Part shown: positions 44,818-62,574 of the stretch, one piece after another
Layout of the letters: every line of letters begins with the position of its first letter
How positions within the stretch are numbered: position 1 is the stretch's first letter
DNA from: Natrinema sp. CBA1119
GTDB lineage: Archaea > Halobacteriota > Halobacteria > Halobacteriales > Natrialbaceae
Direction: 5' to 3'
Assembly: GCF_002572525.1 (NCBI RefSeq)
Contig: NZ_PDBS01000001.1
Location: 3,844,001-3,908,000 of the forward strand
Length of the DNA stretch: 64,000 nucleotides
Translations under genes and position numbers: made by a program
The notes under the pieces: model-generated
The model's database searches: none
Seen by the model: the letters and a program-made list of their open reading frames with translations, nothing else
Told to the model about the DNA's origin: nothing

Positions 44818-44988
44818 TACGAAGACGGCAAGACTACCGAGCAACACCCGCTTGCTACCCAGCAGCGAGATAACCGTGCTACTGTCCGTCCACCGGTGTA
44901 GCGTCTGCAACGCGTCGTACGTTCTCGACTCAGAGAACGGTTCGAGGCCCCGGCCCATCGGTCGGTCCGAAGTACGGCCGAGCCGCAC
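44692..44988 (-). CDS. Small membrane protein overlapping the previous gene
   Basis: A 98-residue protein on the opposite strand. The C-terminal two thirds carry two hydrophobic helices (about 48-65, V-L-L-G-S-L-A-V-F-V-L-V; about 72-88, F-L-S-F-A-L-F-F-V-C-L-A), ending in D-P-L-T-E. The composition looks coding, and similar short membrane proteins occur in haloarchaeal polysaccharide clusters, but the convergent overlap lowers certainty. An internal ATG at 44958 is another possible start. Confidence 0.5.
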   Translation of the reverse strand: MRLGRTSDRPMGRGLEPFSESRTYDALQTLHRWTDSSTVISLLGSKRVLLGSLAVFVLVSVVSVFRSNLGAGVKFLSFALFFVCLAALIDRFVDPLTE

Positions 44989-45014
44989 ATAACTGTTGAT
45001 ACTCCGACGACGAC

Positions 45015-46205: not shown

Positions 46206-46339
46206 ACGCGGTCTCGATAGCGGCACGAAATCAGTGTTCCGTTCGAGAGGCGCCCGTGCGGTCGTGTTCGGCCGTGCCCCCGACCGTCCCGAACGGATGG
46301 CGAAACACTAATCCTGCGGCTCTGGCGAGATAGTGACAC

Positions 46340-47266
46340 ATGGACACGCGTTCGCGACTGTCCCGTGCACTCCGCACCCCGATCCTGTTTTGCCGACACG
46401 CCAACCGGCTGTATCACCGCCGGTTCGGCCGCCGCGAGTGCAACGAGGACGGCGTGGATCCGTTCGAGGCCGACTGGGACAACCTCTTCGTCCTCGACGC
46501 GTGCAGGTACGACATGTTCGAGCGCCGGGCGGAGCTGCCGGGCCGGCTGGAACGCGCCGAGTCCCGGGCGTCCACGACCGTCGAATTTCTCCGCGCGAAC
46601 GTCGACGGCCGAGACCTCAGCGACACCGTCTACGTGACCGCGAATCCACAGCTCTCCCAGCACCGCGAGTCGATCGATGCGCGGTTCGCGGCCGTCGTCG
46701 ACGTCTGGCGTGCGGACGGGTGGAGCAACGAACACGGCACGGTGCTCCCCGAAACGGTGACCGAGTACGCGCTCCAGGCCGCCGAGGAGTACCCGAACAA
46801 GCGCCTCGTCGTCCACTACATGCAACCCCACTACCCGTTCGTTGGGTCCGACGCTGACTTCGACGGCGGGGACTTCTCCGACCCGGAGGCGACCGAGGAA
46901 AACGTCTGGGTACAGCTCTTACAGGGACAAACCGACGTGGACCGGGACGAAATTTGGGAACTCTACGACGGCAACCTCGACCGGGCGCTTCCCCACGTCG
47001 AAGACGCCATGCGAGAACTCGGCGGCAAGACGATCGTAACAGCCGACCACGGCAACATGGTCGGCGAACGCGCGTTCCCAATCCCGTTTCGAGAGTGGGG
47101 ACACCCTCGCGGCGTGTACACGCCGGAGCTCGTCGACGTGCCGTGGCTGGTATACGAGAGCGGGGCCCGCCGGACGATCCGCGCGGCGACTCCCGATGAT
47201 CGCGACGAATCGCCCGACGACGACGTTGTCGCCGAACGGTTGCGCGATCTCGGATACGCCGAATGA
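46340..47266 (+). CDS. Sulfatase/alkaline phosphatase-fold protein
   Basis: A 308-residue protein of the alkaline phosphatase superfamily. D-N-L-F-V-L-D-A-C-R-Y-D (about 46-57) is the first metal/nucleophile strand, and V-T-A-D-H-G-N-M-V-G-E near 234-244 and F-R-E-W-G-H-P-R-G near 251-259 carry metal ligands. In haloarchaeal surface clusters such proteins are called sulfatases and may add or remove sulfate or phosphate groups on glycans. No signal peptide is evident. It is followed after 19 bases by a glycosyltransferase gene. Confidence 0.88.
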   Translation: MDTRSRLSRALRTPILFCRHANRLYHRRFGRRECNEDGVDPFEADWDNLFVLDACRYDMFERRAELPGRLERAESRASTTVEFLRANVDGRDLSDTVYVTANPQLSQHRESIDARFAAVVDVWRADGWSNEHGTVLPETVTEYALQAAEEYPNKRLVVHYMQPHYPFVGSDADFDGGDFSDPEATEENVWVQLLQGQTDVDRDEIWELYDGNLDRALPHVEDAMRELGGKTIVTADHGNMVGERAFPIPFREWGHPRGVYTPELVDVPWLVYESGARRTIRAATPDDRDESPDDDVVAERLRDLGYAE

Positions 47267-47285
47267 CCACCACGAGGGAGACGGC

Positions 47286-48506
47286 GTGAAACTAGGCTTC
47301 GTCCACCCGAGCTATCCGAAGAGCGAGGGAACGGGCGCGACGCACAGCGCTTCGCGCATCGTGTTCGAGCTGGCCGATCGCGGCCACGACGTGACGGTGT
47401 ACCCCTGGGAGCGACCGCCCGAGGACGCCGCGATCGACGCCGACGTTTCGATTCGCCCGCTCGAGCTATCGGGCTACCCGTACCACTCAGCGTTCCAGCT
47501 CAACGACGCGCTCCGGAAGCGCGTCGCCGAGTTCGACGAGTATGACGTCGTGCACAGCTACGTCATGAACAGTATGCCGGTACTGGGCGAGATCGCCGCG
47601 CGAACGAGTGCGGCAACGGTCGTAACGCTGAACGCCTACGGCGGGATCTGCCCGAAAAACGATCTCCGCTACATGGACCGCGAGCCCTGCACTAGCAATG
47701 GGCTGGCCAAGTGTACGGCCTGCTCGCTCGCGACCAGCGGCAGCCACGACGAGGACGGCCCGCTCTATCGCTCGGCGAGCAGGCTCGGTTACCTGAAGCT
47801 GATTCGAGAGGGCGAACGCATGGTCGACGAGATCGACGCCTACCACGCCCTCTCGCCGCACATCGAGGCCACGTACGCCGACTTCGGGTTTCCGCCCGAG
47901 CGGCTGACCGTGATTCCGAACATCCTCGACGAGCGGTTCAGTCGCCCGCACGAGAGCGACTTCGACGCTCCCTACGACCTGCTGTACGTCGGATCGCTCG
48001 ACGAACACAAGGGTGTCGACCGACTCGTCCCGATCCTGAACCGACTGAACGACCGGGTCTCCGGGGCTGTCCGGCTGACCGTCGTTGGCGATGGTGGCCA
48101 CCGGACAGACATGGAACAACGGGCCGCGGACAGCGCCATTGAGGACCGCGTCACGTTCACCGGGTGGCTGCCGAACGACGACCTCCCGGGTGTGTTTGCG
48201 GCCCACGACTGCTTCGTCTACCCCGGCCGGTGGGACGAGCCGTTCGGCCGCGTGTTCCTCGAGGCGCTCGCGACGGGGACACCGGTCGTCGCCAGCGATG
48301 TCGGCAGCGTCGCGGAGATCGTCGGCGACGGCGGCGTCACCACCGACGGCTCCGTGGACGGGTTCGTCGCCGCGCTGCGTGACCTGTTCGACGGCGAGAA
48401 ACTAGCGACCCGCTCGTCGGCGGCCGGGCGCGAGGTGGCGGCCTACCGTGCCGAGACTGTCGTTCCGCAGTTCGAGGAGCTGTACGAGCGCGTGATCGAA
48501 CGGTGA
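47286..48506 (+). CDS. GT4-family glycosyltransferase
   Basis: A 406-residue GT-B enzyme with GTG start. The acceptor domain begins K-L-G-F-V-H-P-S-Y-P-K-S-E-G-T-G-A-T-H-S-A-S. A cysteine cluster (G-G-I-C-P-K-N-D, E-P-C-T, C-T-A-C-S) near residues 125-152 is unusual but occurs in some GT4 proteins and might bind metal. The donor domain has Y-V-G-S-L-D-E-H-K-G-V-D-R-L and W-D-E-P-F-G-R-V-F-L-E-A-L-A-T-G-T-P-V-V-A-S, the E-x7-E motif. It is in an operon with the sulfatase-fold gene. Confidence 0.93.
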   Translation: MKLGFVHPSYPKSEGTGATHSASRIVFELADRGHDVTVYPWERPPEDAAIDADVSIRPLELSGYPYHSAFQLNDALRKRVAEFDEYDVVHSYVMNSMPVLGEIAARTSAATVVTLNAYGGICPKNDLRYMDREPCTSNGLAKCTACSLATSGSHDEDGPLYRSASRLGYLKLIREGERMVDEIDAYHALSPHIEATYADFGFPPERLTVIPNILDERFSRPHESDFDAPYDLLYVGSLDEHKGVDRLVPILNRLNDRVSGAVRLTVVGDGGHRTDMEQRAADSAIEDRVTFTGWLPNDDLPGVFAAHDCFVYPGRWDEPFGRVFLEALATGTPVVASDVGSVAEIVGDGGVTTDGSVDGFVAALRDLFDGEKLATRSSAAGREVAAYRAETVVPQFEELYERVIER

Positions 48507-48513
48507 AGTCGCC

Positions 48514-50313
48514 TCATCGGCTCTGTGCCGCGTAGAGGTCGGCGTACTCCCCGTCGTTCTCGACGAGTTCGTCGTGGGCCCCGACCTCCGAGATTTCTCC
48601 GTCCTCGAGCGTGTAGATGCGGTCAGCGTTCTGGACCGTGGTCAACCGGTGGGCGACGGTGACGACGAGATACTCCCGGTCCATCGTCTCGATCCCCGCT
48701 TGAACGTCTTGCTCCAGGTTCGAGTCCAGATCGCTCGTCGCCTCGTCCAGCAACAACACGTCCACGTCGTCGAGCAGTGCCCGGGCGATGGCGACGCGCT
48801 GTTTCTGTCCGCCCGAGAGCCGCACGCCGTCGTCTCCGACCTGCGTCTCGTAGCCGTCCGGAAGGTCGTCGAGGAACTCGTCGACCTGGGCGATCTCGCA
48901 GACCCGCTCGACCTCCTCCCAGGAGGCGTCCCTGTCGGCGATCGTCAGGTTGTACTCGAGTGTGTCGTCGAAGATGTAGGGGTCTTGCTCCACGACGGCG
49001 ATGTGGTCGCGCCACTCGTCGATATCCATCTCGCCAATCGAAACGCCGTTCGCCCGGATCTCGCCGTCGGTCGGTTCGTGCATCCGTGCGAGCAGCGAGA
49101 TGACGGTCGACTTCCCCGCCCCCGACTGGCCCACGAAGGCGACGAACTCCCCACGGTCCACCGAGAAGTCGACGGTACGGAGTACCTCGGTATCCTCGTC
49201 GTAGGCGAAGCTCACGTCGTCGAAAGCGACCGATTCGATCGTCCCGGGGACCTGGCGACAAGCGGTGTCGGGCTCGGCGTTGCCAGCGAGATCGCGCGTG
49301 AACTGGCGCGTGCGAACGAGATGCGGAAGGTCCTGCTCGATCCGGTAGAACAGTTCGTTGGCCCGACTCGCCTTGGGCCCCAGCCGGAACATCGCAAAGA
49401 GGAACAGGCCCAGCGAACTGAGCGTCAACTCCACGTACGTAAGCGAGACGTAGATGAGCGCGAACACCGACACTGCGACGGTCAGCTGATAGGCGTTGTC
49501 GATCGCGGCTTCGTTGCGACGGAGCTTCACGCGCGCTCGAGTATACTTGTCGACCGCTTCGACGAAATCACCGTACAGTTCGTCGACGAGGCTGAAGATT
49601 CGGCTCTCCCGCATTCCCTGCGTGCCAGCCTGGGCGGCTTCCTGGCGTTGCTCGTTCGCGTCCGCGACCCGGTTGCCGATGTCGTAGCCCGGTTCGACGA
49701 CGACGCGCAACAGCACCGTCACGCCGCCGAGTACAATGACCGTGAGGATCGTAAGTACCGGCGAAACGGCGAACGCGATGAGTCCGTAGACGATGCCGAG
49801 AAAGGACTGCTCGACGAACAGGACCAGCCGCTCGATCACTTGGCCCGCGTAGAACGTCTGGGTGATAATCGCGTTCAGTACGTCGTCGGATCCCGTTTCG
49901 TCGAGGTACGCGATGTCGGCGTCGAAGGCGTTTCCGAACGCCTCCGTCTGGAGGTCCCTGATGTAGGACATCCGGAGCGTCTCCCGGAACCACGCCACCA
50001 GAAAACTCGCCGTGAACCGGACGATCATGACGGCGGCGACGCCCAGTACCGCTGTCCCGAGCGTGAGCGGCACGTTTACGGTCTGGTAGACTGCCGCGAA
50101 GATCCCGGCAATGCCGCCATCGGTGGGCTGGCCGCCCGACTGGACCAGGTCGATGATCGGGAGGATAAAACTCAGTCCGACCCCTTCGAGCACGGCGGCG
50201 ATGATCCCGAGACCGACAATCGCGCCCGTGAGCTTCGGGTCGTATTCGAGAACGCTGACCAACGCGTCGAGTTTTTCGCGCCGCGAAGCGGGAGGGGCAT
50301 CAGGCTCTGGCAT
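48514..50313 (-). CDS. ABC exporter, lipid-linked glycan flippase type (PglK/MsbA-like)
   Basis: A 599-residue half-transporter: six membrane helices in the first 320 residues, then an ATPase domain with Walker A G-Q-S-G-A-G-K-S-T (about 395-403), signature L-S-G-G-Q-K-Q-R near 499 and Walker B V-L-L-L-D-E-A-T near 519. The tail H-R-L-T-T-V has the switch histidine. In a glycosyltransferase cluster the likely cargo is a lipid-linked oligosaccharide, as for PglK. It is convergent with the GT4 gene. The ATG at 50313 is chosen over the longer frame. Confidence 0.92.
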   Translation of the reverse strand: MPEPDAPPASRREKLDALVSVLEYDPKLTGAIVGLGIIAAVLEGVGLSFILPIIDLVQSGGQPTDGGIAGIFAAVYQTVNVPLTLGTAVLGVAAVMIVRFTASFLVAWFRETLRMSYIRDLQTEAFGNAFDADIAYLDETGSDDVLNAIITQTFYAGQVIERLVLFVEQSFLGIVYGLIAFAVSPVLTILTVIVLGGVTVLLRVVVEPGYDIGNRVADANEQRQEAAQAGTQGMRESRIFSLVDELYGDFVEAVDKYTRARVKLRRNEAAIDNAYQLTVAVSVFALIYVSLTYVELTLSSLGLFLFAMFRLGPKASRANELFYRIEQDLPHLVRTRQFTRDLAGNAEPDTACRQVPGTIESVAFDDVSFAYDEDTEVLRTVDFSVDRGEFVAFVGQSGAGKSTVISLLARMHEPTDGEIRANGVSIGEMDIDEWRDHIAVVEQDPYIFDDTLEYNLTIADRDASWEEVERVCEIAQVDEFLDDLPDGYETQVGDDGVRLSGGQKQRVAIARALLDDVDVLLLDEATSDLDSNLEQDVQAGIETMDREYLVVTVAHRLTTVQNADRIYTLEDGEISEVGAHDELVENDGEYADLYAAQSR

Positions 50314-50523
50314 ACGAAAGACTGTATCTACATCGCTACTCCCGGCTGGGGCGTATAAATCCATTCATCTCCATACCGGCGCTGTCACGGCGTGAGGGGC
50401 GTGGTTTAGGTGCGCCAAATGATATGTGAAAGGCTTTTACCGAGGACCGAAGATTCACGAGTAGTTCAAGATCCGAACCATGGACACGGCAACAGAGCGA
50501 CCGTCCGTCTGGGGGAACTCCCC

Positions 50524-51645
50524 GTGAACGTCATCGACGAGAACGGCCGACTGTTCGGTCGCGTCAACGTCTACGACGCGCTGGTCGTCTTACTCGTCTT
50601 GGGGGCGATCGTCGCGGGCGTCGTTTTCCTCGATCCGCTCGGTGGGGGCGACAGCGCCGGCGGAAACGGCGGCGAGTCCGCCACGCGCTATGCGACGGTC
50701 GACCTCGGCAATCGGTCGCCGGCGGTCGCCGAGCGAATCACCGACGGTACGACGTCAGCGCCCGACCTCACGATTACGGACACGTACGTGGGCCCCGCGG
50801 ACGGCGAGAACCTCTCCGTCGTCGTTCGGGTTCGCATCGACGGCACGCTCACCGACGGTGAGGGGAGCGACGGACGGTCCATCACGTTCGCAGATACCCG
50901 AGTACAGCGCGGTAGCGACCTCGACATCGAGACGGCGGAGTACGACGTGGCTGGTGAGGTGCTGGAACTGAGCACCGAGGGGGAGACGCTGAACACGAGT
51001 ACGCTCCCTGTCCTCATCAGAGCGGACCTGGGACCGTCGACGGCTGCCCTCGTCGACCGCGGCGACACCTACCGGATCGACGGCCGGACGATGGCGACCG
51101 TCGAGCAAGCGGTCGTCAACCCGAGGACGAACCGGACGAACCGGACCGACCTCGTGGGACTCTCCCTGCGCACGATCCGATACGACGGCGCCACCTACTT
51201 CGGGGCCGACCGAGTGCTTGTCGACCGGCCGCTCGAGTTCCGGACGGACCGATACGCGTTCTCCGGTACGGTGGCGCGATGGGGGAACGCCTCGCTGCCC
51301 GGTGAGCCGGTCGAACGGACCGTCACCGTAAGAGCCGCGAACGTCCCGCCTCACGTCGCCGACCGGATCGAAGCGGGGATCGTCGAGCGCCGGGGGAACG
51401 CGACGATTGCACGCGTCATGGACGTACGGACCGAACCGGCGTCGGTCGTTCTCACGAGTGCGGACGGGAACATCTACGAACGCGAACACCCCCGGAATGA
51501 AGACGTGTTCCTCACCGTCGAGTTGCGAGCGCGATCCACCGGCGACGATCTTCGGTTCCGGACGCGTCGAGTGCGGGCAGGGACCACCCTGTCCCTGGAC
51601 TTCGACACTGTCTCGGTCGTGGGAGAGGTGTTAGAAGTTCAATAG
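50524..51645 (+). CDS. DUF4330 domain membrane-anchored protein
   Basis: A 373-residue protein. The opening I-D-E-N-G-R-L-F-G-R-V-N-V-Y-D-A-L-V-V-L-L-V-L-G (about 4-27) followed by one membrane helix is the DUF4330 hallmark. The rest (about 40-373) is an acidic, beta-rich extracellular region made of three similar units with D-V-A-G-E-V-L-E-L / F-S-G-T-V-A / S-V-V-G-E-V-L-E-V strands. DUF4330 proteins are found in polysaccharide clusters of bacteria and archaea, perhaps as export partners. GTG start. Confidence 0.85.
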   Translation: MNVIDENGRLFGRVNVYDALVVLLVLGAIVAGVVFLDPLGGGDSAGGNGGESATRYATVDLGNRSPAVAERITDGTTSAPDLTITDTYVGPADGENLSVVVRVRIDGTLTDGEGSDGRSITFADTRVQRGSDLDIETAEYDVAGEVLELSTEGETLNTSTLPVLIRADLGPSTAALVDRGDTYRIDGRTMATVEQAVVNPRTNRTNRTDLVGLSLRTIRYDGATYFGADRVLVDRPLEFRTDRYAFSGTVARWGNASLPGEPVERTVTVRAANVPPHVADRIEAGIVERRGNATIARVMDVRTEPASVVLTSADGNIYEREHPRNEDVFLTVELRARSTGDDLRFRTRRVRAGTTLSLDFDTVSVVGEVLEVQ

Positions 51646-51715: not shown

Positions 51716-51735
51716 TTTTAAGGCTTGCCTAAAAA
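51716..51735 (+). promoter_or_regulatory. Iron-box-like palindrome before the siderophore-like operon
   Basis: TTTTAAGGCTTGCCTAAAAA is an imperfect palindrome around TTG, the form expected for DtxR/IdeR/Idr-type iron-responsive repressors. It overlaps a TATA-like T/A-rich stretch (about 51710-51722) ahead of the operon. A second palindrome of the same type lies at the ferric importer promoter (59753). Confidence 0.65.
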
Positions 51736-51757: not shown

Positions 51758-51832
51758 ATGAACGCTCACACGATGAACCGACCGTTCAGAGCCGTCGTCC
51801 GGCGGGTGGACCGACGGGGTGAAGCAGTATGA
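51758..51832 (+). CDS. Possible leader peptide upstream of the siderophore-like operon
   Basis: A 24-codon frame (M-N-A-H-T-M-N-R-P-F-R-A-V-V-R-R) whose stop TGA overlaps the start of the acyltransferase gene in ATGA. Its position just after the iron box and the 4-base overlap suggest translational coupling. It is too short to judge from composition, and may be untranslated leader. Confidence 0.35.
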   Translation: MNAHTMNRPFRAVVRRVDRRGEAV

Positions 51833-52416
51833 CCGGACCGCGGGAGACGGTGCGGTCGGGGTACAGTTATCTCACAACCGATCCCGACCTCGAGAAGTCC
51901 ATCGGTTTCCGGGAGGTGGATCCGGACCGCGACCTCGGTCGCCTTCACGCGTGGCTCAACAGCGATCACGTCCTCCCCTACTGGGAGCAGGACGATCCGC
52001 TGTTGCAGGTACGGGAGACGATCAACGAACGGGCGCGAAACGAGGACCAGACGCTCTACATCGGCTATCTGGACCACACGCCAATGAGCTACTGGGAATC
52101 GTACTGGGCCGCCCGAGATCGGATCGGCGACTACTACGACGCGGACCAGACCGATCAGGGGATCCACTTACTCATCGGCCCCCCCGAGTACCTCGGCGAG
52201 GGGTACGGGGCCCCGCTGGTGCGGGCGATGGTTGGCTTCCAGTTCCAGCACCCCGAGACGGAGCGCATCGTCACCGAACCGGACATCCGGAATGAGCGGG
52301 CCATCCGCGTGTTCGAGAAATGCGGCTTCGAGGCCGCACACGAGGTCGATCTGCCGGACAAAACTGGACTGCTCATGTTCTGTGACCGGGACCGCTTCGA
52401 GGAGGGGGGCGCATGA
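51829..52416 (+). CDS. GNAT acyltransferase of siderophore type (IucB/RhbD/AlcB-like)
   Basis: A 195-residue acetyl/acyl-CoA-dependent N-acyltransferase. The hallmark is I-G-F-R-E-V-D-P near residue 25, W-L-N-S-D-H-V-L-P-Y-W near 43-53, then Y-I-G-Y-L-D-H-T-P-M-S-Y-W-E-S-Y near 75-90, H-L-L-I-G-P-P-E-Y-L-G-E-G-Y-G near 112-126 (CoA loop), and E-P-D-I-R-N-E-R-A-I-R-V-F-E near 150-163. This arrangement is that of hydroxamate-siderophore acyltransferases, which acylate the hydroxylamine made by the next enzyme. The stop overlaps the start of the monooxygenase in ATGA. Confidence 0.88.
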   Translation: MTGPRETVRSGYSYLTTDPDLEKSIGFREVDPDRDLGRLHAWLNSDHVLPYWEQDDPLLQVRETINERARNEDQTLYIGYLDHTPMSYWESYWAARDRIGDYYDADQTDQGIHLLIGPPEYLGEGYGAPLVRAMVGFQFQHPETERIVTEPDIRNERAIRVFEKCGFEAAHEVDLPDKTGLLMFCDRDRFEEGGA

Positions 52417-53780
52417 CCGACCACGTCCACGACCTCCTCGGCATCGGCGTCGGCCCGTTCAACCTCGGACTCGCGGCACTGATCGACGACGCAGCCGCCG
52501 ACCTCGACGTCGCCTTCCTCGAGCAGAAGCCGGCGTTCAACTGGCACGAGGGAATGCTCATCGAGGGGACGACACTCGAGGTCCCGTTCCTCGCGGACCT
52601 AGTTACGATGGTCGACCCGACGAACCCCTACAGCTACCTCAACTACCTCCGCGAGCAGAACCGCCTCTACGAGTTCTACTTCTACGAGGAGTTTTTCATC
52701 CCGCGCCGCGAGTACAACGACTACTGCCGGTGGGTGGCCGACCAGCTCCCGTCCCTGCGCTTCGACCAGCGGGTCACCGACGTGCGCGAGGACGACGGGG
52801 TGTTTGTCGTCGAGACCGTCGATTCGGTGACGGGCGACCGGGCGAGCTACGCCGCCGAGGACGTAGTCATGGGGATCGGTACCCAACGTCATATCCCCGA
52901 TCAGTTCGAGGACTTCCTCGGCCCCGACGTGTTCCACTCGGCGTCGTACCTTCACAACCGTGACCGGTGTCTCGACGCCGACTCCATCACGATCGTCGGC
53001 TCCGGACAGAGCGCGGCGGAGGTGTTTCGCGACCTCGTCGAGCGCCAGCCCGACCGAGCCTACAGCATCGACTGGATCACCCGGTCGCGTGGCTTCTTCC
53101 AGATGGCCGACGCCAAACTGGGCCACATGATCTACACGCCGGACTACATCGACTACTTCTACGATCTGGATCAGGAGACAAAAGACCAGTTGCTCGGGTC
53201 ACAGGACCTCCTCTACAAGGGGATCGACGGGGAGACGAGCGCGAAGATCTACGACGCGCTCTACCGGAACTCCATCGGTGACGCCGAGCCCGACGTCGGA
53301 CTGCTCGCGGCGACCGAGATCACCGATATCGGGCCGGCCCGGTCGCCCGGCGAGGGCTACCAGTTGATCTGCGAGCAGTGGCAGGAAGGCGACCGGTTCC
53401 TTCACGAGAGCGAGGTGGTGATCCTGGCAACCGGCTACACCCGGACCGATCCGCCCTTCCTCGCACCGCTGGAAGACCGGATCCGGCGCGACGACGAGGG
53501 GCGACTCACAATCACTCGCGACTTCCGTCTGGAGACCGACGGGCTCGCGGGCGAGATCTTCGTCCAGAACGCGGAGTTGCACACCCACGGCCTCAACGCG
53601 CCCGATCTGGGTCTGGGACCGTACCGAAACGCCACCATCGTCAACGCGGTCGCCGACGAGGAGGTCTACGAACCCCGTAGCGCCGACACGTTCCAGCGCT
53701 TCTCCGTCGACGATTTCGTGGCCGAACGCGGGGCACACCGGCTCGAGTCGGCCGCGCCGAAGCCGAGCGACGGGGCTTGA
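52413..53780 (+). CDS. L-lysine N6-monooxygenase (IucD/SidA/PvdA family)
   Basis: A 455-residue flavin N-hydroxylating monooxygenase. The FAD motif G-I-G-V-G-P-F-N-L-G lies at 10-19, the NADPH motif I-V-G-S-G-Q-S-A-A-E-V at about 194-204, and A-T-G-Y at about 340-343. E-G-M-L-I-E-G-T-T-L-E-V-P-F-L-A-D-L-V (about 46-64) is characteristic of IucD-like enzymes, which hydroxylate the terminal amine of lysine or a diamine, the first step of hydroxamate siderophore synthesis. No decarboxylase gene is nearby, so free lysine is a reasonable substrate. One base separates its stop from the next gene. Confidence 0.94.
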   Translation: MTDHVHDLLGIGVGPFNLGLAALIDDAAADLDVAFLEQKPAFNWHEGMLIEGTTLEVPFLADLVTMVDPTNPYSYLNYLREQNRLYEFYFYEEFFIPRREYNDYCRWVADQLPSLRFDQRVTDVREDDGVFVVETVDSVTGDRASYAAEDVVMGIGTQRHIPDQFEDFLGPDVFHSASYLHNRDRCLDADSITIVGSGQSAAEVFRDLVERQPDRAYSIDWITRSRGFFQMADAKLGHMIYTPDYIDYFYDLDQETKDQLLGSQDLLYKGIDGETSAKIYDALYRNSIGDAEPDVGLLAATEITDIGPARSPGEGYQLICEQWQEGDRFLHESEVVILATGYTRTDPPFLAPLEDRIRRDDEGRLTITRDFRLETDGLAGEIFVQNAELHTHGLNAPDLGLGPYRNATIVNAVADEEVYEPRSADTFQRFSVDDFVAERGAHRLESAAPKPSDGA

Positions 53781-53781
53781 G

Positions 53782-55611
53782 ATGGTCGGTCTCTCCGGTG
53801 TATTCGGCGGGGACGCTCACAGCGTCGAGGTGGAGACGGTCCCCGAGACCATCGCCGGTGGCGAGGTGGCCGACACCTACCGCGAACACGGGGTCGTCAT
53901 TCGCGCGGCGTTCCACGAGGGGACGGCAACCGACCAGCCCGCCGAGACCGACGACGGGTCGCTCGTGTGGATCTGGGGCGAAGTGTATAGCGTCACCGAC
54001 GAGGTCGGCGAGCGGCGCTCGGTCGACCCTAACGAATCGGCACAGGTCTGTGCCCGGCAGTATAGCGCCCACGGTCTCGACTTCGTGTCCCGTCTCGACG
54101 GCGAGTTCACCGGTTGCGTCTACGAACCGGCCGCCGACACCGTTTCGTTTTTCACCGATCGGCTCGGTGCGCGGCCGCTGTACTACGCCCGCGGGGATGA
54201 CGGCCTCGCGTTCTCGACGGCCGTCCAGACGGTGCCCGTACTGCCGGGGTTCGAGCCGGCGTTCGACGAGCGATTCCTCGCGGAGTATCTCTACTGTCGG
54301 CGCACGTTCGGCACCAAGACGCCGATCACGGGACTCGAGCAACTGCCGCCGGCGACGATCCTGACCTGCTATATCGAGAGCGGCGACACCGATCGCCGTC
54401 GCTACTGGGAGCCCCGATACCGGCCCCAAGACCGACCGTTCTCGTACTTCGTGCGGGAACTCACCGACCGATTCGAACGGGCGGTCCACGACCGGACGCG
54501 AGACGACCGCGACCACGGCCTCCTGCTGAGTGGCGGGAGCGACTCTCGAGCGGTGCTGGCGGCTGCCGACGAGCCACTCACGGCCTTTCACCTGGGCGAC
54601 GGCTGGAATCGCGAGGCACGGATCGCCCAACGGGCGGCCGACGCCGCCGACTCCCGATTCGAACTGCTGAATCGCGGGCCAAACTACCACGCCACGCTAC
54701 TGGAGCGGGCCGGACCGATTCAGGAGTTCGTCGGGCCATTTCATACGGGTCACGCACTCGGGTTCGCCGATGAAATCGACGCCGAGGTCGACACGCTACT
54801 GACGGGTCTATACAGCGACGATCTCTTCGGATCCTGGAGCATCTCGCAGGCGACGCTTCAGCTCCCTTTCGACATCCAGTTCTGGTTCCCGTTCGAGCGC
54901 CTACCGTCGACCATCGACGACTTCGTATGCGAGCAGGTGACCGCTGGGCCCACGCGCCGGCCCGACTTTCTCGATGCGGCACCGCTCGAGGAGATCCTGC
55001 GCGAGAACATCCGGTTCGAGAACGGCGAGGTGGAGTTCCACGGCGTCGGCTACGAGTCGGTCGAACAGCTCAGCCTCAATTCGACGTTGTATCCGATCAC
55101 GAACGGGATCGGATTCGACCTGTTCAGCGCAGTACAGATCGCGCCAACGCGGAACCCGTTCCTCGACCGCCGACTGGTGGATCTGGCCCTCTCGATGCCC
55201 CTGAAGCACCGATTGCGCCGCGACCCGCTGCACCGAGCAGTGGACCGACTCGACGGCTCGCTGGCCGATATTCCGCACGCTTCGTCGCGCGTCCCGTTGA
55301 AACATCCCAAGGCGGCGCACGTGGTCGGCAATCGCGCGATGAACCTGTTCGACAAACTCGACTGGACCGGTTCGTATCGGACGCAGGGACCGTGGCAGGA
55401 CAAAAACGAAGTGATCAGAACCCACGACTTTGTGGGTCGGGCGCTGGAGCGACACGAGGAGACCGGTCGACGGCTACCCGGCCTCGACTGGGATGCGGTG
55501 CGTGACACGTATCGACGTCACCGCGCGGGCGAGACGAACGCCGCCGAGGAACTATACCGGCTGGTCACCGTCCTCGAAATGCCGCTTACGGGACGAATTG
55601 TCGGCGATTGA
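53782..55611 (+). CDS. Asparagine synthetase-like ligase without the glutaminase cysteine
   Basis: A 609-residue AsnB-family protein. The N-terminal domain (about 1-200) has the shape of a class II glutamine amidotransferase (D-G-E-F-T-G near 106-111, T-D-R-L-G-A-R-P-L-Y-Y near 125-135), but residue 2 is valine (M-V-G-L-S-G) instead of the catalytic cysteine, so ammonia release from glutamine is not expected. The synthetase domain has the PP-loop L-L-L-S-G-G-S-D-S (about 247-255) and T-G-L-Y-S-D-D-L-F-G near 341-350. The same arrangement is known in beta-lactam synthetase, which joins an amine and carboxylate within its substrate. In an operon with N-hydroxylase and acyltransferase it is the probable amide-bond-forming step. 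Confidence 0.88.
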   Translation: MVGLSGVFGGDAHSVEVETVPETIAGGEVADTYREHGVVIRAAFHEGTATDQPAETDDGSLVWIWGEVYSVTDEVGERRSVDPNESAQVCARQYSAHGLDFVSRLDGEFTGCVYEPAADTVSFFTDRLGARPLYYARGDDGLAFSTAVQTVPVLPGFEPAFDERFLAEYLYCRRTFGTKTPITGLEQLPPATILTCYIESGDTDRRRYWEPRYRPQDRPFSYFVRELTDRFERAVHDRTRDDRDHGLLLSGGSDSRAVLAAADEPLTAFHLGDGWNREARIAQRAADAADSRFELLNRGPNYHATLLERAGPIQEFVGPFHTGHALGFADEIDAEVDTLLTGLYSDDLFGSWSISQATLQLPFDIQFWFPFERLPSTIDDFVCEQVTAGPTRRPDFLDAAPLEEILRENIRFENGEVEFHGVGYESVEQLSLNSTLYPITNGIGFDLFSAVQIAPTRNPFLDRRLVDLALSMPLKHRLRRDPLHRAVDRLDGSLADIPHASSRVPLKHPKAAHVVGNRAMNLFDKLDWTGSYRTQGPWQDKNEVIRTHDFVGRALERHEETGRRLPGLDWDAVRDTYRRHRAGETNAAEELYRLVTVLEMPLTGRIVGD

Positions 55612-55702: not shown

Positions 55703-56866
55703 TCAGGCCGACGGGAACCACACCAGCGGGTGGTTCGCGACGAGTTCGACGCGAACCGACTCGCCGATGTCGAACACCTCCGTGTGACCGTGAAGACACT
55801 GTATGGTATCGCCGCTGTCGGTCTCGACGCGGTAGATGAACGACGGGCCCTGGTACTGGCGTCGCGTGATCGTGCCGTCGGCCTCATCGGTCGTCGTCGG
55901 GCTCACGCGGAGGTCGTCGGGGCGAACCAGCACGTCGACCGTCGCCTCGTCGGACAGCGCCCCCCAGTCCGATCGATCGACGCCGACGAGCGCGTTGGTG
56001 TCGAGCTGGCCGACATCGGTCACGAGCACGCCGTCCTCGACGCTCGCCGAGAGGAACCCGGCACGACCGAGGAAGGAGGCGACGAACCGCGAAGCCGGAC
56101 GCTCGAACACTTTTGCCGGCCGCCCGACCTGTTGGAGTTGGCCATCGTGCATCACGCCGACACGGTCGGCGACCGACAGCGCCTCTTCTTGATCGTGGGT
56201 GACCCAGATCGTCGTGACGCCCGTCTCGTCGATGATCCGTCGGATCTCCTCGCGCATGGAGACGCGAAGGCTCACGTCGAGGTTCGAAAGCGGTTCGTCC
56301 AGCAGGAGAACGTCGGGCTCAGGTGCCAGCGAGCGCGCGAGCGCGATGCGCTGTTTTTGTCCGCCCGAGAGCTCGCTCGGGCGATCGTCGCCGTGGTCCG
56401 ACAGGTCGACGAGGTCGAGCAATTGCTCGACGCGGGCCTGACGCTCGCTCTCGGACCACTCTGAGAGCCCAAATCCAACGTTTTCGGCCGCCGTCAGGTG
56501 CGGAAAGAGCGCGAAATCCTGAAACACCAGCCCGATACCGCGCTCTTCGGGCGGTACGAACGTCCCGTCGACGTCAGCGAGGACGCGGTCGCCCAGTTTG
56601 ATGGTTCCATCGTTTGGACGTTCGAGCCCGCCGATCAACCGTAGTGTCGTGGTTTTCCCGCAGCCTGACGGACCCAATAGCGTCAGCACTTCGCCGTCGC
56701 CGACGGAAACGGAAAGGTCCTCGACCGCCGTCTCGGTCGCGTACGACCGAGCGATGTTGTCCAGTTCGAGTACTGTCGATTGTCGAGGATCGTCGTCGGT
56801 GTCGGCGGTCGATATCGCCGGTTCAGACGATGCGAGCGATTCGCGGTTGTAGTTGTGTTCTGACAT
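55703..56866 (-). CDS. Ferric iron ABC importer, ATP-binding subunit (FbpC-like)
   Basis: A 387-residue ATPase of the FbpC/PotA type. Walker A G-P-S-G-C-G-K-T-T lies at about 65-73, the signature L-S-G-G-Q-K-Q-R near 165-172, Walker B L-L-L-D-E-P-L-S-N-L-D near 186-196. The C-terminal third is a TOBE regulatory domain (V-L-V-R-P-D-D-L-R-V-S). It powers the permease encoded 3 bases upstream, and the three genes form one operon. The membership in the Fbp class is deduced from the permease and binding protein. Confidence 0.92.
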   Translation of the reverse strand: MSEHNYNRESLASSEPAISTADTDDDPRQSTVLELDNIARSYATETAVEDLSVSVGDGEVLTLLGPSGCGKTTTLRLIGGLERPNDGTIKLGDRVLADVDGTFVPPEERGIGLVFQDFALFPHLTAAENVGFGLSEWSESERQARVEQLLDLVDLSDHGDDRPSELSGGQKQRIALARSLAPEPDVLLLDEPLSNLDVSLRVSMREEIRRIIDETGVTTIWVTHDQEEALSVADRVGVMHDGQLQQVGRPAKVFERPASRFVASFLGRAGFLSASVEDGVLVTDVGQLDTNALVGVDRSDWGALSDEATVDVLVRPDDLRVSPTTTDEADGTITRRQYQGPSFIYRVETDSGDTIQCLHGHTEVFDIGESVRVELVANHPLVWFPSA

Positions 56867-56869
56867 GAA

Positions 56870-58522
56870 TTACTCCTCCTGTGAGAGGATGACGACCATC
56901 GAAAGACCCGAGACGACGATCAACACCAGCGCGGGGACGGCTGCGAACCCGTAGTAGCCGGATTCGCGGACGCTCCAGATGTACGTGACGAGCGTCTCGA
57001 AGCCTGTTGGGTGAAGCACCAGTGTTGCGGGCAACTCTTTCATCGTGGTGAGAAAGACCAGCGCCGCGCCGCCGATCACGCCGGGTGCGATCAGCGGGAG
57101 CGTGATCCGGCGGAACGCGCCCGCGGGCGTCCGACCGAGCGTTCGCGCAGCTTCGGTCAGACTCCGGTCGACGCGCAGCACCGACGACCGCGTCGACCCG
57201 ACGGCCTGCGGGAGAAAGCGGATGACATACGCAAAGATCAACAGTGGGAGCGTCTGGTACAGCGTTGGGGTGACGTCGACGCCGAAAAGCAAGAGGTCGC
57301 CGACGGACGATTCGTAATAGACGGCGAAGAACACGAGCGCGAGACCGAGGACGATTCCGGGCATCGCGTACCCCACGTAGGTCATCCGGTCGAACAGCTC
57401 AGACAGCCTGGACCGATGTCTCGCGGCAAGGTAGGCAACCGGAACCGCGGCGGCCGCACAGACGACTGCCGCCGCCAGTGAGACGGACACCGAGTTAATC
57501 GCGAACTGCCACTGGAAGCCGACGCCCTGTCGGGTGGCCTGGCTCGGACTCCGGACCAGCCAGTGGGTCAGGACGGCCAGTGGCACGACGAGACAGAGGA
57601 AGACGATACTCGTACAGAATGCGAGCGCGGGGGCTTTCCACGCGCCCAGTGAGACCGTCGTGTCGCTCCCTGAACTCGCGCCTGTGCCGACGTAGGCCCC
57701 GCGACTCGAGTCACCGATTCGCGACTCGATCGAGAGGATCACTGCGGTGATCGCCAGCAACTGCAAGGAGAGCATGGCGGCTGTCTCGCGACCGAACGCG
57801 TTGTACTCGACGAAGATGACGCGGGTGAATACGTCCAATCGCATAAGCGACGGAGTACCGAAATCCGAGAGCGTGTACAGCGCGACCAGGAGAGACCCCG
57901 ATGCGATCCCGGGTAGGAGTTGTCGAAGCGTTACGCGACTGAATGCTCGCCAGCGTGTCGTCCCGAGCGTCCGTGCGGCCTCGACGAGTTGCTGGTCGAA
58001 AGACAGCAGCGACGCCCGAGTCGTGATGAACACGTACGGATAGGTGTACAGCGTGAGCACGAGCGTCGTGCCCCAGAACCCGTAGACCGGTGGAATCGAC
58101 TCGATGCCGAGGGGCGCGAGAGCGTTTGCGAGTTGTCCGCCGGGGCCGAACGCGGAGATGAAGGTAAACGCCCCCAGATAACTCGGGATGACCAGCGGCA
58201 GGGCGACGGCGATGGTCCAGAACCGCCGGAACGGGAGATCCGTGCGGACGGTGAGAAAGGCGAGCGGAACGCCAATGCAGATCGATGCGCCGGTGACGGC
58301 GGCGACGAGGCCGAGGCTCGTCAACAGGATCTCGACGGTCATCGGGCGCGCGACGATCGACAGCGCGTAGTCGGTGTCGACCTGGAGCACGCGCATGACG
58401 ATCCACACGATCGGTGAGAGTACCACTGCGGCGATCGCACCGCTCAGGAGCGTCAGGCCGGTCGGATAGCCGTCCGTCTCCCCTTGGTCAAACCGTGACA
58501 CTAGTCTATCGCCCACGGACAT
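56870..58522 (-). CDS. Ferric iron ABC importer, permease (FbpB-like)
   Basis: A 550-residue inner-membrane permease made of two fused six-helix halves, as in FbpB/SfuB. Each half carries the EAA-type loop that docks on the ATPase: V-E-A-A-R-T-L-G-T-T near 180-189 in the first and L-T-E-A-A-R-T-L-G-R-T-P near 455-466 in the second. It moves Fe3+ released by the binding protein. The start is 1 base after the binding-protein stop. Confidence 0.92.
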   Translation of the reverse strand: MSVGDRLVSRFDQGETDGYPTGLTLLSGAIAAVVLSPIVWIVMRVLQVDTDYALSIVARPMTVEILLTSLGLVAAVTGASICIGVPLAFLTVRTDLPFRRFWTIAVALPLVIPSYLGAFTFISAFGPGGQLANALAPLGIESIPPVYGFWGTTLVLTLYTYPYVFITTRASLLSFDQQLVEAARTLGTTRWRAFSRVTLRQLLPGIASGSLLVALYTLSDFGTPSLMRLDVFTRVIFVEYNAFGRETAAMLSLQLLAITAVILSIESRIGDSSRGAYVGTGASSGSDTTVSLGAWKAPALAFCTSIVFLCLVVPLAVLTHWLVRSPSQATRQGVGFQWQFAINSVSVSLAAAVVCAAAAVPVAYLAARHRSRLSELFDRMTYVGYAMPGIVLGLALVFFAVYYESSVGDLLLFGVDVTPTLYQTLPLLIFAYVIRFLPQAVGSTRSSVLRVDRSLTEAARTLGRTPAGAFRRITLPLIAPGVIGGAALVFLTTMKELPATLVLHPTGFETLVTYIWSVRESGYYGFAAVPALVLIVVSGLSMVVILSQEE

Positions 58523-58523
58523 G

Positions 58524-59741
58524 TTAGAGTGCGCCTACCTCGCGCATGAGTTGCAGCGTCGGCTCGAGGTCCGCGAGCTGGGAGAGATCGAAATCCGGCG
58601 GGTTCAATTCGTCGATAGTCGGGAGGTCTCCGATCGGCGGGACGCTGGGGAGCAGCGGATATTCGTACCCCCGCGTCGCCAGGAACTCCTGGGCCTCGAT
58701 GCTGAGCAGGTGATGGATGAAATCCACCGCCAGCGTCTCGTTTGCCGTGTTCTTGATGATCTCGGTTCCCGAGCAGTTCACGAGCGCGCCCGCGTCGCCC
58801 TGCGTGAACGCGAGATCGATCGGGGCGTTGGGACGCTCTTCGAACACGAGTCGCGAGTAGTAGTGATTTGAGAACCCAGCGCTCAACTCGCCGCTCGCGA
58901 CCCTGTTGGCGACGACCAACTCGTTGTCGTACGTGTTGACGCCCTGTTCTTGCATCCCGTTGAGCCACTGGCGCGCTTCGCTTTCCCCGTCGATGAGTCT
59001 CATCGCGGTGACGAACGCTTGGAACGCGCCGTAAGTCGGAGCCCAGCCCATCGCGTTGTTAAATCGTGAATCCTGCGCGAACGTCAAGATGTCGTTTGGA
59101 ATCTCCGACTCCGAGAACTCCTCCGTGTTGTAGGGAATGCTTCGGGCTCGACCCATGACCCCGACCCACTGATCCGTCGGGTGGTACGTGTCCGGAATTT
59201 CGGAGACGAGGTGGTCCGGGAGCGACACGGTCGCGTCGTTTTCGGCGACGATGCCGATCGATCCGGCGTCGATTGCCCAGAAGATGTCCGCCGGACTCTG
59301 GCCGGCGTTGACCTCCTCGCTGATGGTGTTCGCAAGCTGGGATGAGGGCGCCTCTCGGATGTTCACGATGAAGTCCTGGTACGTGTTCTGGACCCGCTTC
59401 ATCAGGTTCGCGTACAGTCCGCCCTCGCCGCCGCCGAGGTAGACCGTTAGTTCGCCCCGCAGATCCGGAAGATCGAGCATCGACCGGCCGGTGTACTCCG
59501 AGGGGCGGTCGTCGATCAGCGGACCGGACCCCCGCCACTCTTCGAGGGAAAAGAGTTCGTCGACCGTGTACGTCTTGGGATCGGGTATCGATCCCTCTCG
59601 CTCGTACGTCGACTCGTCGCTGTTGCTGGCACACCCCACGAGCGACACGGCTCCGGTCGCCGTTCCGGTGAGTTTCAGGAACTGTCGCCGGCCCCGTCCG
59701 GTCGCGTCACTCCGGTGGTCGCCGCCTTCGTATTCGGCCAT
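58524..59741 (-). CDS. Ferric iron ABC importer, substrate-binding protein
   Basis: A 405-residue extracellular solute-binding protein. The N-terminus has a Tat signal (G-R-R-Q-F-L-K near 17-23) and a lipobox-like S-L-V-G-C (Cys38). The mature part has L-T-V-Y-L-G-G-G-E-G-G-L-Y near 99-111 and later N-H-Y-Y-S-R-L-V near 298-305 and G-D-A-G-A-L-V-N near 319-326, consistent with the FbpA/AfuA Fe3+-binding class; the double tyrosine could bind iron. A DtxR-like palindrome overlaps its promoter. Confidence 0.88.
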   Translation of the reverse strand: MAEYEGGDHRSDATGRGRRQFLKLTGTATGAVSLVGCASNSDESTYEREGSIPDPKTYTVDELFSLEEWRGSGPLIDDRPSEYTGRSMLDLPDLRGELTVYLGGGEGGLYANLMKRVQNTYQDFIVNIREAPSSQLANTISEEVNAGQSPADIFWAIDAGSIGIVAENDATVSLPDHLVSEIPDTYHPTDQWVGVMGRARSIPYNTEEFSESEIPNDILTFAQDSRFNNAMGWAPTYGAFQAFVTAMRLIDGESEARQWLNGMQEQGVNTYDNELVVANRVASGELSAGFSNHYYSRLVFEERPNAPIDLAFTQGDAGALVNCSGTEIIKNTANETLAVDFIHHLLSIEAQEFLATRGYEYPLLPSVPPIGDLPTIDELNPPDFDLSQLADLEPTLQLMREVGAL

Positions 59742-59752
59742 ATACGCCGTAT

Positions 59753-59770
59753 TTTTTGGCTACCCTAAAA
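59753..59770 (-). promoter_or_regulatory. Iron-box-like palindrome at the ferric importer promoter
   Basis: TTTTTGGCTACCCTAAAA, an imperfect palindrome, lies 12-29 bases upstream of the ATG at 59741. On the coding strand the TTTTAGG end serves as the TATA-like element of a leaderless promoter, so a repressor bound here would block transcription factor binding. It resembles the palindrome at 51716. Confidence 0.65.
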
Positions 59771-59873: not shown

Positions 59874-60761
59874 GTGAAAACGAGCATCATCATCCCCGTG
59901 TACAACGATCCAGAGGGGCTAGGAGTGACCGTCGACTCGCTCCTGAACCAGACTGCAACCGACTACGAAGTCGTCATCGCGGACAACGGATCGACCGACG
60001 AGACAGCGGCCGTCGGCCGGGAGTTCGCGCAGTCGGACCGTGTTCGCCACGTCGTCGAAGAGGACGTTCAAAGCTCTTACGCGGCTCGAAACGCCGGTAT
60101 CGAAGTTGCACGTGGGGACATCCTCGGGTTCGTCGACGCGGACATGTGGGTCGAGACCGACTACGTCGAGTCGATCACCGACAAGATGACGGCCGACGAC
60201 CGGGACTACATGGGGTGTAACGTCGAACTTGTGACCGACGACGGCACGATAGGCCGCTACAGATCTACCACCGGCTTCGACGTCGAAAAATACGTCCGAG
60301 AGAAGCGGTTCGCACCGACGTGCTGTGTCGTGACCCGCAAGCGGGTGTTCGACGCCGTCGGGCTCTTCGACAGCCGATTGCGTTCAAACGGGGACCTCGA
60401 GTTCGGCCGCCGCGTCCACGAGGCCGGCTTCGACCTCGTGTTCGAGCCCGACATCACGCTCTATCATCCCGCTCGGTCGACGGTCGGTGAACTTATCGCA
60501 CAAAGTACTCGGATCGGCCGGGGTCGTGGAGAGATCCGGGCGTATCACGGCGATCGGTTCAGTGTGCAAACAACCCTGAATCCGCGACACTATCTCCCGG
60601 TAAATCCCATTGCGTTCCACGAGAGAGTGTCCGGAGCGTACCGCTCACTCACTGAATTTCTCCTGTGGTATCTGCTCGCGTGTATCCAGAAGTGGTCGAT
60701 CACGGGGGGCTATCTGCGACAGACCGTCTCTTCGCCGATGGACGCACCGGATCCTCGTTGA
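59874..60761 (+). CDS. GT2-family glycosyltransferase
   Basis: A 295-residue GT-A enzyme. K-T-S-I-I-I-P-V-Y-N-D opens the fold, V-I-A-D-N-G-S-T-D-E-T is near 34-44, A-A-R-N-A-G near 70-75, and the DXD motif F-V-D-A-D-M-W near 86-92. The C-terminal region has G-D-L-E-F-G-R-R-V near 170 and a hydrophobic segment near 263-278 that may anchor it to the membrane. It belongs with the polysaccharide genes. The GTG at 59874 is in frame with the fold; the ATG 11 bases before is in another frame. Confidence 0.92.
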   Translation: MKTSIIIPVYNDPEGLGVTVDSLLNQTATDYEVVIADNGSTDETAAVGREFAQSDRVRHVVEEDVQSSYAARNAGIEVARGDILGFVDADMWVETDYVESITDKMTADDRDYMGCNVELVTDDGTIGRYRSTTGFDVEKYVREKRFAPTCCVVTRKRVFDAVGLFDSRLRSNGDLEFGRRVHEAGFDLVFEPDITLYHPARSTVGELIAQSTRIGRGRGEIRAYHGDRFSVQTTLNPRHYLPVNPIAFHERVSGAYRSLTEFLLWYLLACIQKWSITGGYLRQTVSSPMDAPDPR

Positions 60762-60783: not shown

Positions 60784-62574
60784 TCATTCTACGGTCACGC
60801 TCTTCGCCAGGTTCCGTGGTTTGTCGATCGACCGACCTAATCGATTCGCCACCCAGTACGCCACCAGCTGTAACTGCACGTTCGCGAGGATCGGAGTGAG
60901 ACGTGGTCCCGCGGTTGGCACCTCCAAGACGTGGTCTACATACCGATCGACGTCCGCGGGCGAATCAGTTACCGCGATGACGGGTGCATCGCGCGCCTCG
61001 ACTTCCGTTACGTTCCCGAGCGTCCTCGTGGCGGTTGCGTCGCCGGTGACGAGCGCGAAAACAGGCGTCCGATCGCTCACCATCGCGAGTGGCCCGTGTT
61101 TCAGTTCGCCGGCCGCAAACCCTTCGGCGTGTTTGTACGTAATTTCCTTCATCTTCAGCGCACCCTCGCGGGCGACGGGCGCGTTGTACCCTCTCCCAAT
61201 GAAGAAGTAGGCGTCGGCATCTTCGTACGTCTCCGCGATGGACCGGGCGTTCGACGTGTCCAAGACCCATTGGACTTGATCGGGAAGGGTACGCAATCGT
61301 TTGACCGGGGGTGCTGAACACGTCTCCGAGAGCACGCTGGCGAGCATCGCCAGCGCGACCTGCTGACTCGCGAACGTCTTCGTCGCGGCCACGCTGATCT
61401 CCGGGCCCGCACGGATGAGCATCGCGTGATCGCACTCCCGGACGGCTGAACTGCCGACAGTGTTCGTTAGCGCGAGCGTCGTCGCACCGGTGCGATTCGC
61501 AGCGCGGAGTGCACGCATCGTATCGGCCGTCTCGCCGCTCTGGGTTACACCCACGACGAGCGTCCCGTCGGACACTGGTATCGAGGCTGCGTCGTACTCG
61601 CTGGCGAGAAAACACTGAGCCGACACGTCCCACTCGCGCAACAGTTGCGCGCCGTAGCAGGCAGCGTGATACGAGGTTCCACACGCGACGAACTGTACCG
61701 GCCCGTCGCAGTCGAGGGATGCCAATTCCTCGATCGTCACGTCCCCATCTAGTTCAGTGACGCGCTGGCGAAGACACTGGCGAATCGCCCGTGGCTGTTC
61801 GTGAATCTCTTTGAGCATGTAGTGGTCGTACCCGCTCTTGCCGGCGTCCTCGGGATCCCACGCGACCGTCTCGATAGCGGTTTCGACGATGGCACCCTGT
61901 GCGTCGGTGACGACGATACCTGCAGGGTTGATCCGCGCGAACTGCCCGTCATCGAGGTAGACGACCCGATCCGTGTACTCGATGAACGCTGGCACGTCGC
62001 TCGCCAGATAGTGACCGTCGTCCCCGATTCCGAGCACGAGCGGTGACTCGTGACGCGCAGCGTATACCGTCTCGCTGTCGGAGAACACCGCCGCGATGGC
62101 GTAGCTTCCGTCGAGTCGGGAGACTGCCTCACGGAACGCTTCCTCGCGGCTGGCCCCCGTCGTGAGTGCATTCTCGATCAGATGGGGGATGACTTCGGTG
62201 TCCGTCGCACTCTCAAACGTGTGCTCACCGGCCTCGAGCTCGTCTCGGAGCGACTGGTAATTTTCGATAATACCGTTGTGGACCACGGCGACCGATTCGG
62301 TACAGTCCGTATGTGGATGGGCGTTCTCGTCAGTCGGTGGCCCGTGCGTACTCCAGCGAGTATGCCCGATTCCGGCCGTGCCGTCGATTCCCTCGTCCGG
62401 AACGGCGGCCTCGAGGGCCGACACCTCGCCTCGACGCTTGTAGACCATCAACGACTCGCCCGAAACTGACAGTCCAGCGGAATCGTAGCCGCGATACTCG
62501 AGTCCAGACAAGCCAGTCAGCAGGATATCACTGGCGACTCTCTCGGTCCCGGTGTAGCCGATAATGCCACACAT
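60784..62574 (-). CDS. glmS: Glutamine-fructose-6-phosphate aminotransferase
   Basis: A 596-residue GlmS. The N-terminus M-C-G-I-I-G-Y-T-G puts the glutaminase cysteine at position 2, followed by H-T-R-W-S-T-H-G near 72-79. The C-terminal half has two SIS sugar-isomerase domains with C-G-T-S-Y-H near 298, T-Q-S-G-E-T-A-D-T near 343, and the end S-V-T-V-E in place of the usual K-S-V-T-V-E signature region (K present before it). It makes glucosamine-6-phosphate for UDP-GlcNAc and surface glycans. Its start overlaps the stop of the nucleotidyltransferase by one base. Confidence 0.96.
   Translation of the reverse strand: MCGIIGYTGTERVASDILLTGLSGLEYRGYDSAGLSVSGESLMVYKRRGEVSALEAAVPDEGIDGTAGIGHTRWSTHGPPTDENAHPHTDCTESVAVVHNGIIENYQSLRDELEAGEHTFESATDTEVIPHLIENALTTGASREEAFREAVSRLDGSYAIAAVFSDSETVYAARHESPLVLGIGDDGHYLASDVPAFIEYTDRVVYLDDGQFARINPAGIVVTDAQGAIVETAIETVAWDPEDAGKSGYDHYMLKEIHEQPRAIRQCLRQRVTELDGDVTIEELASLDCDGPVQFVACGTSYHAACYGAQLLREWDVSAQCFLASEYDAASIPVSDGTLVVGVTQSGETADTMRALRAANRTGATTLALTNTVGSSAVRECDHAMLIRAGPEISVAATKTFASQQVALAMLASVLSETCSAPPVKRLRTLPDQVQWVLDTSNARSIAETYEDADAYFFIGRGYNAPVAREGALKMKEITYKHAEGFAAGELKHGPLAMVSDRTPVFALVTGDATATRTLGNVTEVEARDAPVIAVTDSPADVDRYVDHVLEVPTAGPRLTPILANVQLQLVAYWVANRLGRSIDKPRNLAKSVTVE

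Follow-up and report, generated by a model that had tools for sequence, protein, structure and literature searches.

An AsnB-fold protein as a candidate joining enzyme of a putative iron-regulated hydroxamate siderophore pathway in haloarchaea

Analysis of a 64,000-nucleotide stretch of the genome of Natrinema sp. CBA1119 (hereafter the window) revealed a protein of the asparagine synthetase B (AsnB) fold, for which we coin the name AsnL and which is encoded together with enzymes of hydroxamate synthesis. From the comparison of sequences we consider it probable that AsnL is an ATP-dependent amide ligase replacing the IucA/IucC (NIS) synthetase in an iron-regulated hydroxamate siderophore pathway, and that it uses the amine of an N-hydroxylated unit and not ammonia. 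We propose it as the joining enzyme because it shares an operon with hydroxamate enzymes, is associated with iron boxes, occurs in genomes without NRPS condensation domains and mostly without IucA/IucC, branches together with its partner hydroxylase and displays a particular pattern of residues. More tentatively, this might represent a third siderophore route of haloarchaea, neither NRPS nor IucA/IucC, in which an AsnB-fold ligase that lost its glutaminase, and whose site of acyl transfer is unusual, came to link N-hydroxy-N-acyl diamine units, perhaps into a desferrioxamine-like oligomer or ring.

The cassette, its regulation and its distribution

The gene asnL is the third in a tight operon, after an iucB-type and an iucD-type gene (Table 1), and the junctions between the genes are a 4-nt overlap or a 1-nt gap. 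An N-hydroxylase and an N-acyltransferase in one operon are one of the marks of a hydroxamate siderophore cluster. Convergent to this operon lie the genes of an FbpABC-type ferric-iron importer (55703-59741), which is of the free-ferric (FbpA) and not of the siderophore (FecCD) type, and this counts against the participation of AsnL in siderophore assembly. On its two sides (43570-48506 and 59874-60761 in the window) the cassette has, in most loci, glycosyltransferase genes and a gene for a sulfatase-like protein of 308 aa; some of this block is also present without the cassette in genome G073 (L106), and for this reason the glycosyltransferases were set aside as a component of the system.

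Table 1. Features of the window: genes, iron-box-like sites and motifs of AsnL
Feature	Position	Strand	Evidence
Type I ABC exporter, possible siderophore exporter	48514..50364	-	PF00005 + PF00664; neighbour in 8/9 loci
Weaker iron-box-like site between ABC exporter and DUF4330 gene	50406..50419		absent from stricter scan
DUF4330 protein	50410..51645	+	Pfam; neighbour in 6/9 loci
Iron-box-like palindrome TTTTAAGGCTTGCCTAAAAA before iucB operon	51716..51735		motif scans
IucB-type GNAT N-acyltransferase	51829..52416	+	PF13523 175.4 bits; nearest structures 2qml, MbtK; DfoC also matched
IucD-type flavin N-hydroxylase, diamine type	52413..53780	+	PF13434 379.7 bits; nearest structures DesB 6xbb, DfoA 5o8p, FbsI 7us3
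AsnL, Cys-less AsnB-fold amide ligase candidate	53782..55611	+	Pfam PF00733, AF2 model, VIA
N-terminal MVG of AsnL, Val replacing catalytic Cys	53782..53790	+	sequence, column counts
PP-loop SGGSDS, residues 250-255	54529..54546	+	sequence, homologue alignment
GLYSDDLFG, residues 342-350, aligned to AsnB GEGSDEVFG; Glu348 replaced by Leu343	54805..54831	+	hhalign, column counts
ABC importer ATPase, FbpC/PotA type	55703..56866	-	PF00005 + TOBE_2
ABC importer permease, FbpB type	56870..58522	-	PF00528, two stretches
FbpA-family ferric-iron-binding protein	58524..59741	-	phmmer 7w3w 1.2e-50, then FbpA/HitA/SfuA
Iron-box-like site before ferric-binding protein gene	59753..59770		motif scans

Among solved hydroxylases, the cassette IucD matches best DesB, DfoA and FbsI (371, 336 and 316 bits), followed by MbtG (204 bits). 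It keeps the conserved Asp equivalent to D391 of DesB, the charge of which clashes with the carboxylate of ornithine and which replaces a Leu of ornithine hydroxylases (PMC8009421). A lysine-type IucD is less likely, the cadaverine/putrescine hydroxylases being the nearest solved structures by more than 100 bits, and the NCBIfam assignment as histamine N-monooxygenase was rejected, since the score of 432 falls short of the cut-off of 700. As to the GNAT protein, its matches to aminoglycoside 6'-acetyltransferase are far below the cut-off, and its sequence, with just six diagnostic positions, does not reveal the acyl group. Within the cassette no diamine-forming gene or decarboxylase was found, and only three of the nine cassette genomes have a 2,4-diaminobutyrate-decarboxylase-type gene like that of NIS clusters; both observations count against the siderophore reading. 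Every genome tested has genes of the agmatinase family and of PF02784, which are of no discriminating value. The cassette IucD proteins differ from those of the NIS group by five fixed residues (Q230, D233, H238, M239, N395) near the substrate/NADP side, besides which a sixth residue is lost. Because of these differences and of the frequent absence of the decarboxylase-type gene, the amine used is unlikely to be diaminopropane, as it is in the NIS route.

A palindrome resembling TTTTAGGCnnGCCTAAAA is situated upstream of both iucB and the importer; we call it an iron box by its genomic targets and not by a published motif. When up to three mismatches are allowed, two sites are present in the window against 0.03 expected. 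The cassette loci, 217 kb in all, gave 29 matches, and the loci with AsnL homologues of 33-42% identity, 229 kb in all, gave none. The whole genome has matches at 18 places, several of which adjoin FecCD permeases, Peripla_BP_2 binding proteins and the gene of an iron-dependent repressor; the same palindrome is found at iucBD/NIS loci of relatives. Such a distribution suggests that the iucB-iucD-asnL operon is probably controlled by iron. Second copies of AsnL with iron boxes of their own were detected in genomes G031 and G087: one (L042:8111-9928, minus strand) stands alone, off the cassette, and the other (L043:5140-6954, plus strand) is inside the same cluster. They make up a sub-clade, which perhaps serves a second condensation step. 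Two more sites were noted: a strong match about 18 kb before the window (G000:C1:3826396-3826413, L119), which precedes the gene of a bacterial sugar transferase (PF02397), and a perfect match spanned by an open frame of 672 aa (L112:387-2405). This frame matches no Pfam domain and ends beside a FecCD permease gene; it encodes a new protein unless it has been miscalled.

The gene order iucB-iucD-asnL and the adjoining FbpABC importer are syntenic in all nine loci, which come from several haloarchaeal families and include that of Saliphagus infecundisoli (L010, G391); the scan of genome contigs yielded one relative only, and plasmid records contained just homologues of 37-43% identity. In the trees the cassette IucD proteins form one clade (support 100/100), as do the cassette AsnL proteins (98/100), and the inner branching of the two clades is similar.

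Hydroxamate siderophores built from such units require a condensing enzyme, and two kinds were searched for, IucA/IucC (PF04183) and the NRPS condensation domain. This Natrinema genome has no IucA/IucC. Among 85 sampled haloarchaeal genomes in which IucD was matched, IucA/IucC is present in each of the 77 that have no cassette (in at least 74 of them within 6 kb of iucD) versus two of the eight that have it (G087 and G161), never near iucD. With the ninth cassette genome, that of S. infecundisoli, which has no IucA/IucC either, seven of nine are devoid of this family, none has it near iucD, and the NRPS condensation domain is absent from all nine. Fisher's exact test for the cassette against IucA/IucC gives 6e-8, a value that is descriptive and not an independent test, as the genomes are related. 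In G087 and G161 AsnL could act beside the NIS enzyme, which speaks against the proposed replacement. The IucA/IucC clusters of these two genomes (L108 and L109, respectively) have iron boxes and no IucD alongside, and probably belong to a different NIS siderophore.

Fold and active sites of AsnL

The asnL frame begins with ATG and encodes 609 aa with the N-terminus MVGLSGVFG; the protein includes LLLSGGSDSRAV, within which S250-G251-G252-S253-D254-S255 form the ATP-binding loop, so that both motifs are as they had been read initially. All ten close homologues (58-78% identity, from eight other genomes) also start with MVG, and Val2 is therefore not an artefact of start-site choice or sequencing. 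An internal contrast is offered by the intact glmS of the same window (60784-62574, minus strand), which has an MCG start. Two Pfam domains were recognized above their cut-offs of 21 and 25 bits, Asn_synthase with 63.1 and GATase_7 with 38.9 bits, and AlphaFold2 gave a model of high confidence (pLDDT 93, pTM 0.92). Its VIA Z-scores are 26.9 to TsnB9 (7ylz; rmsd 3.2 over 508 residues), 24.8 to beta-lactam synthetase (1m1z), 24.7 to E. coli AsnB (1ct9) and 21.8 to carbapenam synthetase, with Foldseek E-values down to 4e-20. The predicted fold is thus of the complete two-domain AsnB/beta-lactam synthetase type, in agreement with the initial annotation.

The residues of AsnL were mapped by hhalign profile alignment with AsnB and human ASNS and counted by column over 36 haloarchaeal homologues, the 11 cassette copies of AsnL included. 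The column of the catalytic Cys1 is V2 in all 11 cassette copies and Val in 26 of the 36 sequences, none of which has Cys there. At the column of AsnB Asn74 the cassette copies have Trp (W65; 11/11), at that of Arg49 Arg is not fully conserved (nine of 11), and no clear counterpart of Asp98 was found in the profile alignment. Judging by these positions, the glutaminase site as a whole looks dead; the PP-loop SGGSDS and D346 (the Asp of GSDE) are kept in 11/11 copies, and the earlier picture of an inactive glutaminase joined to an intact ATP pyrophosphatase loop holds.

In the synthetase domain, the column of AsnB Glu348 is occupied by Leu343 in each of the 11 cassette copies; in beta-lactam synthetase this residue is Tyr348 of the Tyr-Glu dyad. 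Tyr344, which follows Leu343, is invariant in the cassette copies and is Tyr in 32 of the 36 homologues. Lys449 of AsnB (Lys443 of beta-lactam synthetase) is not recognisable in a region where the alignment is unsure, and an ungapped alignment by eye puts His499 (His in 33/36) at its place. In addition, 29 positions, including 443-447, W352, E315 and G274, hold residues that all cassette copies share and that are rare in the other homologues. As far as the aligned residues tell, the synthetase site corresponds to that of neither AsnB nor beta-lactam synthetase. Because the post-adenylation residues of both enzymes (Glu348 and Lys449; Tyr348 and Lys443) are not recognisably conserved, the ligase activity of AsnL is deduced from its fold and PP-loop, and these differences count against it. 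Nor do they support the close analogy with beta-lactam synthetase that had been drawn initially, and neither do the conserved His nearby and the context of iron and hydroxamate genes.

The loss of the catalytic Cys had been read initially as an argument against the synthesis of asparagine by AsnL. Since a large haloarchaeal family is devoid of this Cys, its loss is not specific to AsnL, and we dropped it as an uninformative argument; the use of free ammonia would fit it as well. The conclusion stands on other grounds: AsnL is likely an enzyme other than an asparagine maker, because its glutaminase looks dead, it is placed far from E. coli AsnB, it scores 102.3 bits with the NCBIfam AsnB model TIGR01536 (cut-off 267.1), and its gene is tied to siderophore-type genes. 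Cys-less AsnB-like proteins of 33-42% identity (L049-L060) occur in many haloarchaea and in varied contexts; some of them adjoin sulfatase-like genes or form a tandem pair with another AsnB-like gene, the product of which begins with MNKELFGVFG.

Proposed pathway and alternative explanations

The pathway may be envisaged as follows. Low iron would relieve a DtxR-type repressor at the palindromes; the enzyme assigned to the IucD family would N-hydroxylate one amine of a diamine-like substrate, and the GNAT-family protein would acylate the hydroxylamine to give a hydroxamate. AsnL would then adenylate a carboxylate, to be attacked by the free amine of a hydroxamate unit with no hydrolysis of glutamine. 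The acid may be either the distal one of a dicarboxylic acyl group (succinyl), leading to self-joining or ring closure as in desferrioxamine, or a polycarboxylate such as citrate, leading to a schizokinen-like compound; a schizokinen-type product was proposed for Haloferax volcanii (PMC7407949). The product would leave the cell via the neighbouring ABC exporter, and iron would re-enter via the FbpABC-type importer or via FecCD importers encoded elsewhere.

It is unlikely that AsnL performs tailoring and not assembly, using free ammonia to amidate the hydroxamate product, or some other acid, at a carboxylate. The genomes without NIS and NRPS enzymes would then be left with no joining enzyme, and a lone N-hydroxy-N-acyl diamine would be a weak chelator, although the loss of the glutaminase still permits ammonia-dependent chemistry. 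This alternative is favoured by the AsnB-type nitrile synthetase PesC, which accepts ammonia (PMC13060819). The proximity of glycosyltransferase and sulfatase-like genes in most loci, together with the varied contexts of the 33-42% homologues, some of them beside genes that look sulfatase-type (judged from translations only), might mean that the target of AsnL is a surface glycan or some other molecule of the cell envelope, which the hydroxamate genes decorate too, for example as a cell-bound iron trap. We regard this as rather improbable, since the iron boxes are at the iucB operon and the importer, none having been found in the window before the glycosyltransferases (43570-48506), and the glycosyltransferase/sulfatase-like pair is separable from the cassette, as in G073.

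There is little probability that AsnL is regulatory, vestigial or an ammonia-using asparagine synthetase that merely happens to be located in the operon. The loss of Cys1, Asn74 and the equivalents of Glu348 and Lys449 would agree with a regulatory or vestigial protein, as would the commonness of Cys-less homologues in haloarchaea, but the universal retention of the PP-loop and D346 in the cassette copies, their 29 specific invariant positions and the iron boxes of the second copies would not, nor is asparagine synthesis expected to depend on iron. Finally, beta-lactam synthetase and lasso cyclases close rings, and the search for condensing enzymes was limited to two families, so that AsnL might perform a late ring closure on a siderophore assembled by an undetected enzyme encoded elsewhere; this we consider very improbable, given an iron-boxed cassette with no other ligase candidate and the absence of both known assembly families from most cassette genomes.

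Relation to known systems

Siderophores are normally classed as products of NRPS or NIS routes. A third one is predicted by the conserved, iron-boxed cassette, in which the enzymes of hydroxamate formation are accompanied by an AsnB-fold protein where the assembly enzyme of either route would be expected; since haloarchaea can be cultured, the prediction is open to direct test. Genome mining that relies on IucA/IucC or NRPS domains would probably fail to recognise the cassette as a siderophore cluster. If AsnL is indeed the joining enzyme, the chemistry of the AsnB fold would be widened, since the post-adenylation residues differ from those of AsnB and beta-lactam synthetase. An AsnB-type siderophore ligase or a pathway of this kind was not found in the literature searched, most subscription papers being outside its reach.

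Among AsnB-fold enzymes, AsnL shares the full-length two-domain architecture of AsnB (1ct9), but has no Cys1, Asn74 or Glu348, no recognised Lys449 and a score below the TIGR01536 cut-off. With the beta-lactam and carbapenam synthetases (1jgt, 1q15) it has in common the fold, the Cys-less N-terminal domain and the intact PP-loop; in contrast to beta-lactam synthetase, it has Leu343 (then Tyr344) at the place of Tyr348, no recognised equivalent of Lys443 and a different gene context. The hydroxyamidotransferase TsnB9 (7ylz) is its best structural match, with a Z-score about 2 above those of beta-lactam synthetase and AsnB, but, unlike AsnL, TsnB9 keeps Cys2 and the Lys region. Because residues that define AsnB, and Tyr348 of beta-lactam synthetase, are missing from it, we class AsnL under neither; it would function as a Cys-less AsnB-fold ligase.

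As for the pathways, the schizokinen-type NIS cluster iucABDC-dat-bdb of Hfx. volcanii (PMC7407949) is similar in its IucB and IucD homologues and in hydroxamate chemistry, the IucB and IucD proteins of 24 NIS loci being 47-60% identical to those of the window; the cassette, however, has neither the two IucA/IucC synthetases nor the diaminopropane-forming genes, and has AsnL in their stead. The desferrioxamine pathways (DesABCD, DfoAC) provide the closest solved hydroxylases, DesB and DfoA, and the N-terminal domain of DfoC is matched by the GNAT protein, whereas a DesD/DfoC-type NIS synthetase and a lysine decarboxylase are not part of the cassette. On the whole, the cassette pathway has two enzymes, and probably the regulation, in common with hydroxamate siderophore clusters, minus their defining assembly enzyme.
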